Source of the DNA: a virus | Direction: 5' to 3' (one strand) | Length of the DNA: 35,764 nt | IMG/VR virus record: IMGVR_UViG_3300043435_000133 | Span: 1 to 35,764 of that record | Part shown: positions 11,251 through 18,869 of the stretch, piece by piece | How the letters are laid out: each line of letters begins with the position of its first letter | Numbering within the stretch: the stretch's first letter is position 1 | Translations under genes and position numbers: made by a program | The notes under the pieces: generated by a model | What the model saw: the letters and a program-made list of their open reading frames with translations, nothing else | What the model was told of the DNA's origin: nothing | Database searches by the model: none

Positions 11251-11266
11251 GTAAGGGAGCACTAAC

Positions 11267-13531
11267 TTGGAATTTTTGGACTTTATCACAAAACTCGCCC
11301 CAACCGGCGAAACCGCACTAATTGTTAGACAAAAACCACAACTGAAAGACGGCGCGATTCAGCTACATGCTGACGGCGCAGTCAAATGCACATGGCCAGC
11401 GTACCTGCCCAGCAAGGGCACCAAGGCTGGCCAAGCGTGGTACGGCAACACCGCCAGCTTCATCGTTGACCGCTTCGCCGATGGCCGCGTGTCAGCGTCT
11501 GCAGTCAATTGCGAGTACATCCTTGTGATGATGCTCGACGACATCGGCACCAAGTCCAAGACGCCCCCGTTGGAACCCACGTGGATTATGGAAACCTCCG
11601 AGGGCTCATTCCAGTGGGGTTACGCCTTCAGCGACCAGCCCACCAAGGCCGAGTTCAGCGCAGCCATCAAAGCGATCGCCGACGCGGGCTATACCGACCC
11701 AGGTGCCTGCAACCCCGTGCGCAACTTCCGACTGCCTGGTTCAGTCAATCTGAAGCCCGACCGCAACCATTTCGAGTCCCGCTTGGTCGAGTTCCACCCA
11801 GAACGCGAATACACACTAGGTGACATTTGCGAAGCCTTGGGTGTCACACCAGTCGAGGCCGATTCCCTCACCCTGCGCCCCATCCGCTTGTCCGACGATG
11901 GTGCGGATGACGTCATGGCGTGGCTGTCTGAGCAGGGTCTGCTTCTCTCCCGCCCCAACGGCGAGGGCTGGGCTGGCGTCATCTGCCCCAACGGTGCCGA
12001 GCACACCGACGGCAACCCCGAAGGCCGTTACATGCCCGCCAACCGCGCCTATTGTTGCCTGCACTCGCATTGCGTGGACTTCGATTCGCGCATGTTCCTG
12101 CAATGGGTCGCCGACAATGACGGCCCAGCACACACCCCAGGCTTGCGTGAGGAACTGTTGGCCCAAGCGATGGACTCGGCGCTGTCCAAGCTCACGCCCA
12201 CCATCGAGTACCCCAATGAGGCCGCCCGCGTCATCGCCGAGGTCGAGCGCAAAGAGCTTGGCCGTATTGAGAAGGCCGAATGGTATGAGCGGTTCGCCTA
12301 CGTTCAAGCAGATGATGGTTATTTCGACTTGACCGACCGCCGCGAAGTAACCCGCAGCACCTTCAACGCCTTATTCCGGCACATAGACTGCAAGTCGATC
12401 CACAACGCCAAGCGTCGGATTGAGGCGTCGCATTGCTTCGACGAGAACCGCCAAGCCAAGGGAGCTAAGGCATTGGCCGGTATCACCTACGCCGCTGGCG
12501 CGTCCATTTTGGTCGCCCGTGATGGCTTGGTCTACGGCAACCGCTGGCGCGACGCCCGCCCCAAGGCCGCGCCTGGGGATGTCAGCAAATGGTTAGAGCA
12601 CGTCGAGCGCATGATCCCCGAGCCCTTCGAGCGCGAGCACCTGCTCAACGCCTTGGCCCATAAGGTGCAATTCCCCGCCCATAAGATTAACCACGCCATC
12701 CTCATGGGCGGCAACCACGGCAGCGGCAAAGACACCCTCTTTGCCCCCTTCTTTTGGGCGATTGGCGGTGAGGCTAAGGCCAACTGCTCACTGGTCAAAA
12801 ACGAGGACCTGTCGTCCCAGTGGGGTTACGCGCTCGAGTGCGAAGTGATGGAGATCGCCGAATTGAGGCAGGCAGAGGCCAAAGACCGCCGCGCCTTAGA
12901 GAACACCCTCAAGCCCATCATTGCAGCGCCCCCTGAACTTCTCATGGTCAACCGTAAGGGTTTGCACCCCTATATGGCTTTGAACCGCGTTTTTGTCATC
13001 GCTTTCAGTAATGAGCGCGTGGCCATATCGTTACCCTCAGAGGATCGCCGTTGGTTTGTCCTGTGGAGCGCAGCCCCTAAACTACCCGAAGCTCAGGCGG
13101 TGAGCTTGTGGAACTGGTACCAGCACCGAGGCGGCTTTGAGGCCGTCGCCCATTACCTGCACACCCGCGACGTGTCCGATTGGAACCCCAACGCGCCCCC
13201 GCCGCTCACTGAGGCCAAGGCCATCATGGTCGAGCATGGCATGAGTACGGCCGAGTCATTCCTGGTCGACCAGCTACGCCGCCGCGTGGGTGAATTTTCC
13301 CGTGGTGTCATCGCGTCGCCCTTCCACGGTGTATGCGACCGCTTGCAGGGCATGGCGCCCACTGGCGTCAAGATAGTGCAGGCCGCGCTCTTACACGCGC
13401 TTAAGGAGGCCAACTGGGTTGACATGGGCCGCGTCGCGTCGCGCACCCATAGCACAAAGAAGCATATCTTTTGCGCCCCTGATTTGGCCAAAGCCACAAA
13501 GTCCGACCTGCGCGACATGGTCGAGGCGTAA
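11267..13531 (+). CDS. Primase / SF3 (D5-like) helicase
   Basis: This 754-residue fused primase-helicase unwinds and primes DNA for the polymerase upstream. The N-terminal region (about 80-185) resembles RepB/prim-pol type phage primases: EYILVMMLDDIG, then AGYTDPGACNPVRNFRLPGSVNLK. The helicase part has Walker A GGNHGSGKDT (481-490, K488), a B-like strand ECEVMEIAELRQ, and motif C region FVIAFSNERVAI before EDRRWFVLW, the SF3/DUF5906 pattern. A Cys/His patch (CCLHSHCVDF, about 263-272) may bind zinc. The start is TTG 11267 with AAGGGAG upstream. Strong hairpins bracket the gene. Confidence 0.87.
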   Translation: MEFLDFITKLAPTGETALIVRQKPQLKDGAIQLHADGAVKCTWPAYLPSKGTKAGQAWYGNTASFIVDRFADGRVSASAVNCEYILVMMLDDIGTKSKTPPLEPTWIMETSEGSFQWGYAFSDQPTKAEFSAAIKAIADAGYTDPGACNPVRNFRLPGSVNLKPDRNHFESRLVEFHPEREYTLGDICEALGVTPVEADSLTLRPIRLSDDGADDVMAWLSEQGLLLSRPNGEGWAGVICPNGAEHTDGNPEGRYMPANRAYCCLHSHCVDFDSRMFLQWVADNDGPAHTPGLREELLAQAMDSALSKLTPTIEYPNEAARVIAEVERKELGRIEKAEWYERFAYVQADDGYFDLTDRREVTRSTFNALFRHIDCKSIHNAKRRIEASHCFDENRQAKGAKALAGITYAAGASILVARDGLVYGNRWRDARPKAAPGDVSKWLEHVERMIPEPFEREHLLNALAHKVQFPAHKINHAILMGGNHGSGKDTLFAPFFWAIGGEAKANCSLVKNEDLSSQWGYALECEVMEIAELRQAEAKDRRALENTLKPIIAAPPELLMVNRKGLHPYMALNRVFVIAFSNERVAISLPSEDRRWFVLWSAAPKLPEAQAVSLWNWYQHRGGFEAVAHYLHTRDVSDWNPNAPPPLTEAKAIMVEHGMSTAESFLVDQLRRRVGEFSRGVIASPFHGVCDRLQGMAPTGVKIVQAALLHALKEANWVDMGRVASRTHSTKKHIFCAPDLAKATKSDLRDMVEA

Positions 13532-16104: not shown

Positions 16105-16159
16105 GGTCTTACTTTCGTTTAGTTGATTGCCTGGCTGCAATATCGCGGCCAGTGATATT

Positions 16160-16188
16160 AATGTAAGGATATCCCTTGCACTTGTCAA
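16160..16188 (-). promoter_or_regulatory. Sigma70-type promoter of the leftward small-gene operon
   Basis: On the minus strand a consensus -35 TTGACA (16188-16183) is followed by a 17-bp spacer and TACATT (16165-16160; 4 of 6 consensus bases). The start would be near 16153, giving a leader of about 50 bases before ATG 16104. It is the best promoter match in the window and indicates early expression by host RNA polymerase. Confidence 0.7.
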
Positions 16189-16218
16189 CAATTATTTTCT
16201 AGGTGTTTACCCTATTTT

Positions 16219-16246
16219 GTGTGGGCGTTTTGGGTTAAGTGTGGGC
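16219..16246 (+). repeat. GTGTGGGC direct repeat pair
   Basis: The octamer GTGTGGGC occurs at 16219-16226 and 16239-16246, 20 bp apart, about two helical turns. It shares GTGTGGG with the arms of the hairpin at 16477-16512, so the same protein may bind all of them. Confidence 0.45.
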
Positions 16247-16265
16247 AACCGTGCACCGGCTTAAA

Positions 16266-16317
16266 TGACCTACAAAAAAAGCTTATGGCCGTTGACTTTT
16301 TTTGACTTTGTAGGTCA
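16266..16317. repeat. Inverted repeat TGACCTACAAA / TTTGTAGGTCA
   Basis: Two perfect 11-bp arms (16266-16276 and 16307-16317) face each other across 30 bp that include GTTGACTTTTTTTGACTT. The motif belongs to a family, TGACC-Y-ACA, that returns at 16429, 16486-16493 (minus), 16498 and 16803. It is too far apart for a tight hairpin and looks like paired protein-binding sites. Confidence 0.55.
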
Positions 16318-16362
16318 TATTGTCATTTTTTAGGGTATATATAAAGGACTTTAAAAATGTAA

Positions 16363-16382
16363 TACTATATAGCTATACAGTA
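16363..16382. repeat. 20-bp near-perfect palindrome
   Basis: TACTATATAGCTATACAGTA matches its own reverse complement at 18 of 20 positions. It is centred on AGCT in a stretch that also holds TATATATAAA (16336-16345). The form fits an operator for a dimeric regulator or a melting site. Confidence 0.45.
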
Positions 16383-16476
16383 GGATGTGGACCATGCCGT
16401 TTGGCGCGCGACTCAAGTTTTCAAAAAAATGACCCACAAACGCCAAAAAATGACGTAAGCCTATGATTTTAAAAGG

Positions 16477-16512
16477 AAAAAGTGTGGGTCATTCAAATGA
16501 CCCACACTTTTT
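16477..16512. repeat. 36-bp hairpin with 16-bp perfect arms
   Basis: AAAAAGTGTGGGTCAT (16477-16492) and its exact complement (16497-16512) flank a TCAA loop. It contains two facing TGACCCACA motifs. The arms end in A5/T5 runs, so it would also work as a bidirectional intrinsic terminator isolating the two operons. It touches the first 16-bp iteron at 16515. Confidence 0.75.
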
Positions 16513-16514
16513 GG

Positions 16515-16711
16515 GTTAGTGGCCACTAACTTAGGTCAAACGGCCATGTTAGTGGCCACTAACCACCAGCCGATGGCCATGTTAGTGACCGCTCACTTCA
16601 CTAAGTTAGTGCTCACTAACTTAGCATAGTGATAAAGGTTAGTAGACACTAACTTAGCTGCTGTAAGTAAGCGCTCACTAACCAGGCTGCTGTAAGTAAG
16701 TGCTCACTAAC
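16515..16711. repeat. Array of seven 16-bp palindromic iterons GTTAGTGnnCACTAAC
   Basis: Copies start at 16515, 16548, 16581 (degenerate), 16605, 16638, 16667 and 16696. The first two are identical (centre GGCC). The copy at 16605 extends to a 24-bp palindrome (16601-16624, CTAAGTTAGTG arms). The last two, at 16667 and 16696, lie in a 26-bp direct repeat and carry GTAAG in the left arm. Spacings are 33, 33, 24, 33, 29 and 29 bp, mostly about three helical turns, so proteins bound there would line up on one DNA face. Spacer lengths exclude a CRISPR. Confidence 0.85.
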
Positions 16712-16713
16712 TT

Positions 16714-16734
16714 AGGAGGGTGGGGGGGGTAGGG
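16714..16734 (+). other. G-run with quadruplex potential
   Basis: Directly after the last iteron, GGAGGGTGGGGGGGGTAGGG provides four G-triplets with loops of one or two bases on the plus strand, so it could fold as a G-quadruplex when single-stranded. In an origin such a block could hold strands open or stall a polymerase. Confidence 0.45.
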
Positions 16735-16770
16735 CCGGCGGCCAAGGGCCAACGGTGACGTAGGTTTCAC

Positions 16771-16796
16771 AAACAATTTTTTTTTATTTTTAAATT
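16771..16796. other. AT-rich tract, candidate duplex-unwinding element
   Basis: A 26-bp run of A and T with a single C (16774), including a T10 block, lies 60 bp right of the iterons and just before another TGACCCACA motif (16804-16812). An easily melted block next to iterons is the usual plan of iteron-type origins. Confidence 0.4.
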
Positions 16797-16851
16797 GCCC
16801 ACATGACCCACAGGCTGATATATTCCTATTGCTGCGCGCATAGCAACTGGA

Positions 16852-16880
16852 TTGACCATAGCTCCTTAACTTTGTATTTC
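16852..16880 (+). promoter_or_regulatory. Possible late promoter before terminase
   Basis: TTGACC (16852-16857), a 17-bp spacer and TATTTC (16875-16880) face the terminase genes, with a start near 16887 and a leader of about 35 bases before ATG 16922. The -10 matches only half of the consensus, so it may be weak or need an activator. No better rightward promoter is seen between the hairpin at 16477 and the gene. Confidence 0.35.
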
Positions 16881-16921
16881 TAGAACTCCCTGCGCCAGCA
16901 TTTCTTTGGTATATTCCGCGC

Positions 16922-17371
16922 ATGACGTTCCACAGCCTCCCTTTTGAGCCGCGCAAGATCGTTGCGACCGAAGCGCGCTTGAACAAGATTTACGAAGCCG
17001 CCAAGCTCGGCCTCAAAGGCGATGCCTTGGCCTTGGCCTCCGGCATGTTGCCTACCGAGTACCGGCAACTGTGCGAGCTAGACCCCATCGCCGACATGGC
17101 AGCGCTCAAAGGCAAAGCCGACGGCGAACTGGAAATGTCCAAATGTTTGCACAAAGCGGCGACCGAAGGCGACGCCAAAGCGGCGCTGGCAATCCTGCAA
17201 CACTCACACGGCTGGGTGGCCAAGCAGTCCATCAGCATAGATGTCGATCAGCGCATATCAATCATCGGCGCGTTACGCCAAGCGGAGTCACGGGTTATTG
17301 ACGTGATCGCTAATGAGCCAAGCCCTAAGCTAGAACAGACACTAAATGCAGAACACCATCTACAGCGCTGA
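16922..17371 (+). CDS. terS: Terminase small subunit
   Basis: This 149-residue protein lies directly before the large terminase and overlaps it by 26 bp. It should recognise the packaging start site and load DNA on the large subunit. The N-terminal half is helical and HTH-like (EARLNKIYEAAKLGLKGDALALASGMLPTEYR reads as two helices and a recognition helix). A central helical oligomerisation part follows (GELEMSKCLHKAATEGDAKAALAIL), then HGWVAKQSISIDVDQ, the usual exit strand of phage small terminases. The iteron array 200 bp upstream is a possible target. Call based on fold pattern and position. Confidence 0.75.
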   Translation: MTFHSLPFEPRKIVATEARLNKIYEAAKLGLKGDALALASGMLPTEYRQLCELDPIADMAALKGKADGELEMSKCLHKAATEGDAKAALAILQHSHGWVAKQSISIDVDQRISIIGALRQAESRVIDVIANEPSPKLEQTLNAEHHLQR

Positions 17372-18869
17372 AGACGAACAGGAACTGATGGCCAGACTCT
17401 GGAGTCCGGCGATCAAGGACAACCCGCTGGCGTTTGTGATGTTCGCGTTTCCTTGGGGTGTCAAGGGCACACCGCTGGAAAACTTCCAAGGCCCGCGCAA
17501 ATGGCAGCGCGAGGTGCTGTTGGATATTGCAGTGCACATAAAATCTAACCAAAGTAAGCTGGACTTCGACGTGTTGCAAGAGGCCATATCGTCTGGCCGT
17601 GGTATTGGCAAGTCTGCCCTAGTCAGTTGGATAACCATATGGATGGCGTCAACGCGCATTGGCTCGACGACCATCATTTCGGCCAATAGTGAATCGCAGC
17701 TCAGGTCGATCACCTGGGCCGAGATCACAAAATGGCTGGCGATGTCTATCAACTCACACTGGTTTGAGGTTTCAGCCACCAGAGTGATGCCAGCCAAGTG
17801 GCTGACTGAGCTTGTGGAGCGTGATTTGAAAAAGGGCACCCGCTACTGGGGCGTCGAAGGACGCTTATGGTCAGCGGAAAACCCCGACGCGTACGCTGGT
17901 GTGCACAATTTTGACGGTGTTTTGGTGGTTTTTGACGAGGCGTCAGGTATTGACGACTCAATTTGGGCGGTGACGGGTGGTTTTTTCACAGAAAACACGC
18001 CAAACCGCTTTTGGATGGCTTTTTCCAACCCACGGCGCAACACTGGGTACTTTTACGAAGCGTTTAACAGCAAACGTGAGTTTTGGAAGACCCGCGTCGT
18101 GGACGCCCGCACGGTCGAAGGCACCGACAAACAGGTATATGAGCGAATAATCGCCGAATATGGGCCAGACTCAGCCCAAGCGCACGTTGAGGTGTACGGT
18201 CAGTTCCCCAACGCGGGCGATGACCAGTTCATCGGAGCTGACATCGTGGACGACGCCATGAAACGTAATAAGTATCAGGATCAGTCAGCGCCAATCGTGA
18301 TCGGTGTAGACCCCGCACGGTTTGGAGCGGATGCGACGGTCATCGCGGTGCGGCAAGGGCGCGACATTGTGAAGATCATGCGGCACAGAGGCGACGACAC
18401 CATGACGGTGGTGGGGCATGTGATCGAAGCGATTGAGGAATTTAAGCCTACGCTAGTCGTGATCGACGAGGGTGGGCTGGGGGCTGGGATTGTGGACCGG
18501 CTGAAAGAGCAGCGGTACAAAATCAAGGGCGTGAACTTTGGAAACAAGGCCAAGAACCCAGTTATGTACGGCAATATGCGCGCGCAGATGTGGGGTGACA
18601 TGCGCGAATGGCTGAAAACGGCGGCGATTCCAAACGACAGGTTCTTGAAAACGGATCTGATTTCGCCTATGATGAAGCCTGACTCACGGGGAACGATCTT
18701 CTTGGAGAGCAAGAAGGACATGAAGTCGCGGGGGCTGGCGTCACCGGACGCCGCCGACGCAATTGCTGTTACATTTGCGTTTCCAGTGGCACATCGACAA
18801 TATGTTGAGCCAACCCGCCGCGTGAACATGCAGGGTAGTGGGGTCAACGCATCATGGATGGGATCATGA
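17346..18869 (+). CDS. terL: Terminase large subunit
   Basis: This 507-residue packaging motor and nuclease is close in length to P22 gp2. The ATPase part has Walker A SGRGIGKSA (83-91), Walker B VLVVFDEAS (192-200) and a coupling segment with AFSNPRRNTG. The nuclease part has D322 (GVDPARFGAD), D374 (VVIDEGGLG) and D468/D471 (SPDAADAIAVTFA), the RNase H-like acidic triad. The N-terminal FQGPRKWQRE is the usual adenine-binding entry. The start overlaps the small subunit gene by 26 bp, and the end overlaps the next gene by ATGA. Confidence 0.95.
   Translation: MQNTIYSAEDEQELMARLWSPAIKDNPLAFVMFAFPWGVKGTPLENFQGPRKWQREVLLDIAVHIKSNQSKLDFDVLQEAISSGRGIGKSALVSWITIWMASTRIGSTTIISANSESQLRSITWAEITKWLAMSINSHWFEVSATRVMPAKWLTELVERDLKKGTRYWGVEGRLWSAENPDAYAGVHNFDGVLVVFDEASGIDDSIWAVTGGFFTENTPNRFWMAFSNPRRNTGYFYEAFNSKREFWKTRVVDARTVEGTDKQVYERIIAEYGPDSAQAHVEVYGQFPNAGDDQFIGADIVDDAMKRNKYQDQSAPIVIGVDPARFGADATVIAVRQGRDIVKIMRHRGDDTMTVVGHVIEAIEEFKPTLVVIDEGGLGAGIVDRLKEQRYKIKGVNFGNKAKNPVMYGNMRAQMWGDMREWLKTAAIPNDRFLKTDLISPMMKPDSRGTIFLESKKDMKSRGLASPDAADAIAVTFAFPVAHRQYVEPTRRVNMQGSGVNASWMGS

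Follow-up and report, generated by a model that had tools for sequence, protein, structure and literature searches.

A palindrome array of putative SlmA-binding sites in the control region of a freshwater phage

Upstream of the gene encoding the small terminase subunit (TerS) of a freshwater phage, seven copies of the palindrome GTTAGTGNNCACTAAC, with 0-2 mismatches each, are lined up at 16515-16711. Which protein reads this array (array A), and what is its role? We analysed the whole linear IMG/VR virus record of 35,764 bp (the window), which is podovirus-like by gene content and encodes a PolA-type polymerase, a primase/helicase, a PD-(D/E)XK exonuclease, an SNF2 helicase and the large terminase subunit (TerL). 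With a probability of roughly 0.6, we interpret the array as a cluster of SlmA sites that would block host division through SlmA.

The control region and its modules

The gap at 16105-16921, between a leftward 62-aa gene and the rightward terminase genes, contains a control region of about 720 bp upstream of the TerS gene. This region consists of three modules, namely the 9-bp repeats (B), the palindrome array (A) and a G-run/AT block (C) (Table 1). As described in the initial annotation, the array is located between two genes of opposite orientation, one leftward and one rightward, and the flanking hairpin, G-run and AT tract are all present. The 20-bp double form of the last two array copies, the 9-bp repeat family TGACCCACA and the block at 16715-16791 had been overlooked.

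Table 1. Features of the control region and of the terminase and primase/helicase genes in the window.
Feature	Position	Strand	Remarks
A site 1	16515..16530		GTTAGTGGCCACTAAC; putative SlmA-dimer site
A site 2	16548..16563		GTTAGTGGCCACTAAC
A site 3	16581..16596		GTTAGTGACCGCTCAC; bases 1-10 as in E. coli SBS17
A site 4	16605..16620		GTTAGTGCTCACTAAC; inside 11-bp arms 16601-16624
A site 5	16638..16653		GTTAGTAGACACTAAC
A site 6	16663..16682		20-bp double site GTAAGTAAGCGCTCACTAAC, formed by two 16-mers shifted by 4 bp
A site 7	16692..16711		20-bp double site GTAAGTAAGTGCTCACTAAC
B repeat	16266..16274	+	TGACCTACA; putative initiator iteron
B repeat	16309..16317	-	TGACCTACA
B repeat	16430..16438	+	TGACCCACA
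B repeat	16483..16491	-	TGACCCACA; hairpin arm
B repeat	16498..16506	+	TGACCCACA; hairpin arm
Hairpin	16477..16512		two inverted B repeats; 17-bp perfect arms
Abutting 9-mers	16795..16812	+	TTGCCCACA-TGACCCACA; retained in many relatives irrespective of the B variant they have
Block C	16715..16791	+	G-run, GTAGGGCC...GGGCC, AACAATTTTTTTTTATTTTT; candidate packaging or origin core; found by regex
TerS, small terminase subunit	16922..17371	+	assigned by position and HTH; no match in PHROG and Pfam
TerL, large terminase subunit	17346..18869	+	phrog_2
Primase/helicase	11267..13531	+	phrog_1156, DUF5906; putative reader of B
Codons of primase residues 724-729	13436..13453	+	predicted wing, tracking the B variant

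The array copies start at 16515, 16548, 16581, 16605, 16638, 16667 and 16696 (spacings of 33, 33, 24, 33, 29 and 29 bp) and have the consensus GTTAGT-N4-ACTAAC. When the whole window was searched for GTTAGTGNNCACTAAC with at most three mismatches, we found 8 matches against 1.3 expected, a number reached by none of 100 dinucleotide shuffles, which confirms the seven palindromes and their spacings as initially reported. Copy four had been extended to a 24-bp palindrome at 16601-16624; its 11-bp arms are indeed perfect, but the central CT is not palindromic. The proposed helical phasing, with most sites on one face of the DNA, was not observed, as the phases modulo 10.5 bp were 0, 1.5, 3, 6, 7.5, 5 and 2.5 (R=0.23, p=0.70). 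The distribution of spacings in related arrays, taken over 446 gaps, has maxima at 23-24, 28-29, 33 and 38-39 bp. Successive maxima are about half a helical turn apart, which does not correspond to a single face.

Relatives were collected from IMG/VR by their TerL (hundreds) and more were added by the array pattern, from which 120 non-redundant related regions were compared. The array was found in 77 of these. The 43 regions (36%) that lack it show that the array is not essential. In phages, the arrays contain 3-9 near-perfect copies within about 200 bp, and many of them include the 20-bp double form (for instance GTTAGTGAGTGCTCACTAAC in the related contig L219). Exact copies of the B repeat in array-bearing regions were counted 269 times to the left of A, 113 times to the right and twice inside; as B copies are almost never inside A, array A is a self-contained module.

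Block C, with the consensus GAGGGGGAGGGGGTAGGGCC...GGGCCA.CGGTGACGGAGGTTTCACGAACAATTTTTT among relatives, was recognised by a regular expression in 66 related loci, with or without array A. A packaging role is possible for this G-run block adjoining the array, as is a role in origin opening. Where contigs start within 700 bp of TerS, they do not share a single break point. Furthermore, insertions of several hundred bp were seen in the gap between TerS and TerL in L010, L015, L016, L154 and others.

Phage proteins as candidate readers

The initial annotation had likened the palindromes to iteron-type origins and to lambda-like cosB sites, i.e. to an origin or packaging control region. The region does have this look, and iterons that are probably those of the initiator exist, but they are the B repeats TGACCCACA and not array A. 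The B repeats are hypervariable among relatives, each phage having many copies of one variant, and the variant tracks a short stretch of the primase/helicase close to its C-terminus. The stretch GR(I/L)KSRxxD(T/S)KKH pairs with TTGTCCACA, GRLKSSLHDTKKH with TTGTCCATA, GRLASRE(Y/F)(Q/G)TKKH with TAGCCAACA, GRVAS(S/G)D(Y/F)(P/Q)SKKH with TGACCCAAA and, in the window, GRVASRTHSTKKH with TGACCCACA. When the K...D class of primases was set against the repeats TTGTCCAYA and TTGCCCACA, the counts were 24/1/2/37 (Fisher 3e-14, a statistic that ignores relatedness). A natural swap is seen in L096 and L165. Over 772 aligned positions, their primases have 25 differences, and six of these are inside the variable stretch; the B repeats of these phages are TGACGTGCA and TTGTCCACA, respectively. 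There is no strict one-to-one pairing, since some phages have mixed B sets alongside one primase.

When the last 125 primase residues were modelled with AlphaFold (mean pLDDT 81), this part had a winged-helix topology and the variable stretch was predicted to be the loop between the two wing strands. A fold search with this C-terminal model returned winged-helix-like matches only, none at E <= 0.001. As the B variant follows this stretch, the B repeats are probably a set of origin iterons read by the primase/helicase, with a swappable specificity loop. The P4 alpha protein, also a primase/helicase, works with short type I iterons in direct and inverted copies. By description, the window phage is similar, with a primase/helicase of similar size and short iterons in both orientations; in contrast to P4, the iteron sequence in the window family changes between close relatives along with the wing loop of the protein. 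Together, B and the primase wing give the impression of a protein-DNA specificity code that can be read and for which nature has made swap experiments. In L055, about 300 bp upstream of TerS, the perfect DnaA boxes TTATCCACA and TTATGCACA were found among the B repeats.

For array A, a role as an iteron origin read by a phage initiator, as in the case of lambda O, is hardly credible. The region is probably an origin, as B co-varies with the primase/helicase, but repeat specificity follows the initiator in B and not in A, the consensus of which stays constant while B and the primase recognition stretch change. Moreover, close relatives, which have to replicate too, do without A, and the cumulative GC skew of the window, suggested as a check for an origin, makes no turn at 16.5 kb. 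The primase/helicase itself was considered as the reader of A and rejected, as it tracks B instead.

We also consider it very unlikely that the array is a cosB- or pac-type packaging site for TerS. Where present in the window family, the array is always just upstream of TerS and abuts the conserved G-run block, and the unrelated contigs L121, L166, L183 and L197 have it near a large terminase gene as well. However, the sites are not kept wherever TerS is kept: L029 encodes a TerS with 92.5% identity and the same HTH, and has no A site. The HTH (IYDAAKLGLKGDTLALAAGMLPTEYRQL and close variants) is common to phages with and without A and almost unchanged across the clade lacking the array, and TerS was rejected as the reader on these grounds. 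The element that both groups of phages share is block C, and unrelated terminases beside the same motif would need a convergent TerS specificity. The lambda cosB-like role put forward initially is not supported. Lambda ori iterons and cosB R sites are repeated sites of 16-19 bp near the origin or the terminase genes. Array A resembles them in this respect, but it tracks neither the initiator nor TerS.

In total, 13 array-bearing contigs had no detectable TerS, TerL or primase of the window's family, and these fall into about 10 groups that are mutually unrelated by blastn. On L121, L166, L183 and L197, the A-type array and an unrelated large terminase are located on the same fragment. The presence of the same palindrome array in unrelated phages is most simply explained by a reader that is a host protein. 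In addition, tblastn detected no SlmA/TetR gene in any of the phage loci, and none of ten small proteins of the window matched a DNA-binding family in Pfam. Searches of isolated phages and plasmids with array-like queries gave no meaningful match by BLAST, which is insensitive to such short motifs.

Similarity of the array to SlmA-binding sites

The half-site GT(T/G)AGT, together with the 20-bp double form that many arrays contain, pointed to SlmA as a candidate reader. SlmA is a TetR-family nucleoid-occlusion factor with the site consensus GTGAGTACTCAC, and its sites are absent from Ter (PMC3116907). For comparison we used this consensus, which was taken from a review, and the sequences of E. 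coli SBS17 (containing GTTAGTGACCATTTACTTAC) and SBS12 as given by the primers in PMC4117426. The SlmA-binding sites (SBSs) on the chromosomes of E. coli and V. cholerae resemble array A in their half-sites GT(T/G)AGT...ACT(A/C)AC, their palindromic form and the 20-bp double form. In contrast to the phage arrays, they are single, scattered and imperfect.

A PWM of A was built from 520 phage sites of 128 arrays. It gave per-position p-values of 7e-7 for SBS17, 2e-5 for SBS12 and 2e-5 for the consensus GTGAGTACTCAC. When consensus operators of other regulators were scored, 19 in all, none did better than 4.6e-4, worse than for the SlmA sites. With a PWM from the unrelated phages alone, SBS17 and SBS12 scored 4e-7 and 8e-5, respectively. 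The similarity of the motif to verified SBSs thus exceeds that to other operators, and the interpretation of the array sites as putative SlmA-binding sites is well supported at the sequence level.

Next to the phages, bacterial chromosomes were searched for the motif. Among 185 genomes of one class, 37 encoded SlmA above the NCBIfam cut-off and 148 did not. Matches with at most one mismatch against those of a reversed-pattern control were 71:74 in the former and 116:310 in the latter, counted after removal of the phage sites of the MAG described below. This is an enrichment of 2.56 in SlmA-bearing genomes (Fisher 3e-6; 0 of 20,000 genome permutations). Perfect 16-mers were not abundant on SlmA-bearing chromosomes, and a genome-wide search for them is by itself too weak as a SlmA signature.

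The position of the matches was analysed in G133, a genome with SlmA on one 3.11-Mb contig that was selected after showing perfect matches; 2.825 Mb were read, with the skew origin near 1 kb and the terminus near 1.507 Mb. On average, the 20 best sites were 545 kb away from the origin, against 841 kb expected, and none of 150 column-permuted PWMs was as origin-proximal. The raw match count was not above that of the permuted PWMs, so that the bias is one of position only, and with the PWM from unrelated phages it was weak (13, 23 and 7 of 120 controls). In E. coli K-12, we found 11 matches in 400 kb around oriC and 3 in 400 kb around the terminus, a modest bias (for the ten best sites, 10 of 200 controls). 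An origin-side bias of this kind is also characteristic of chromosomal SBSs. The chromosome tests agree in direction, weakly in the case of E. coli, and none of them is decisive alone. The best E. coli terminus match, TGTTAGTCATAACTAACA at 1647867 (L399), is located in the dicC-dicA intergenic region of prophage Qin, beside a prophage division-inhibitor locus.

A scan of 84,980 genomes for paired motifs yielded, among the 14 matches listed, 12 Microbacteriaceae contigs, one Agathobacter (Firmicute) contig and one member of the phage family. The latter, L219, is a window-family contig within a betaproteobacterial MAG bin. This MAG encodes SlmA (273.7 bits, cut-off 120; 46% identical to E. coli SlmA) with the recognition helix VSEAALYRHF, identical to that of E. 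coli. This one binned contig is the only host hint.

Could the array be read by a different TetR-family regulator of the host, the recognition helix of which resembles that of SlmA? In Microbacteriaceae (L208-L218 and L221), paired GTTAGTGNNCACTAAC sites 25-26 bp apart form an apparent conserved operator, most of them adjoining a SACE_7040-like TetR gene (with the similar helix VGVSGPAVYRHF) and an acyl-CoA carboxylase-like gene. Likewise, in G128 the site GTGAGTGGTCACTCAC (L229, C37:85497) immediately precedes the gene of a TetR protein that is distantly SlmA-like (25% identity). However, the Microbacteriaceae operators are pairs and not arrays, and both the E. coli sites and the genome-wide enrichment tie the motif to the SlmA equivalog, which leaves this alternative with a small chance.

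A possible block of host division

In E. coli, a multicopy plasmid carrying tandem SBSs together with functional SlmA leads to a lethal division block, because the dispersed SlmA-SBS complexes inhibit Z-rings across the cell (PMC3573117). A similar selection was used in PMC4117426. From these published plasmid experiments we infer that array A may act in the same way when bound by SlmA in its host. Each 16-mer GTTAGT-N4-ACTAAC would be the site of one SlmA dimer, and the 20-bp forms would be two overlapping dimer sites. SlmA is an inhibitor of FtsZ only in complex with DNA of this kind. As the array adjoins the phage origin and its copy number would rise with replication, SlmA would be loaded on phage DNA in all parts of the cell, where it would block Z-ring assembly and stop host division. 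Many phage copies with seven origin-adjacent sites each would reproduce the effect of the tandem-SBS plasmids. As in the plasmids pHC534 and p2SBSK, tandem sites are located on a replicating element and a SlmA-dependent division block is predicted; these plasmids are laboratory constructs, whereas the phage array is natural and adjacent to the origin.

Alternatively, SlmA might bind the sites without blocking division, either regulating the divergent promoters or the origin, or being titrated off the chromosome. In V. cholerae, SlmA is a direct activator of chb, with its site located 167 bp ahead of the start (PMC5519180), and the array is located between divergent genes beside the putative origin. 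On the other hand, repeated sites of variable number and spacing are unlike a promoter operator. With about 500 SlmA dimers for 24-52 chromosomal sites (PMC3573117), a few phage copies are unlikely to titrate SlmA early. We therefore regard binding without a division block as unlikely, albeit the most serious competitor of the division block.

The phage inhibitors of FtsZ found in the literature, lambda Kil, T7 gp0.4, T5.008/Hdi and P1 Icd, are proteins acting on FtsZ. The effect inferred for the array is the same, a stop of host division, but here DNA would activate the host's own FtsZ antagonist. No report of SlmA sites on phages was found in the literature searched, where subscription journals were thinly covered. 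It is conceivable, at slightly less than even odds, that unrelated uncultivated phages independently gained SlmA-site arrays as a protein-free division inhibitor that is activated by the multiplication of phage DNA. Phage division blocks have so far been traced to proteins; if this proposal is true, non-coding DNA exploits a host checkpoint by means of an element that is invisible to annotation pipelines. The array would then be a sequence mark of phages of SlmA-bearing hosts, useful for host prediction, and would offer a direct test of the number of DNA-bound SlmA molecules needed to stop a cell. Hosts, in turn, would have a reason to change SlmA or its sites.

Outside the control region, an A-like site with two mismatches at 11251-11266 abuts the primase start codon. 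It recurs in several relatives (e.g. at 4159 in L007 and at 1342 in L022) and may be a chance overlap with the ribosome-binding site.
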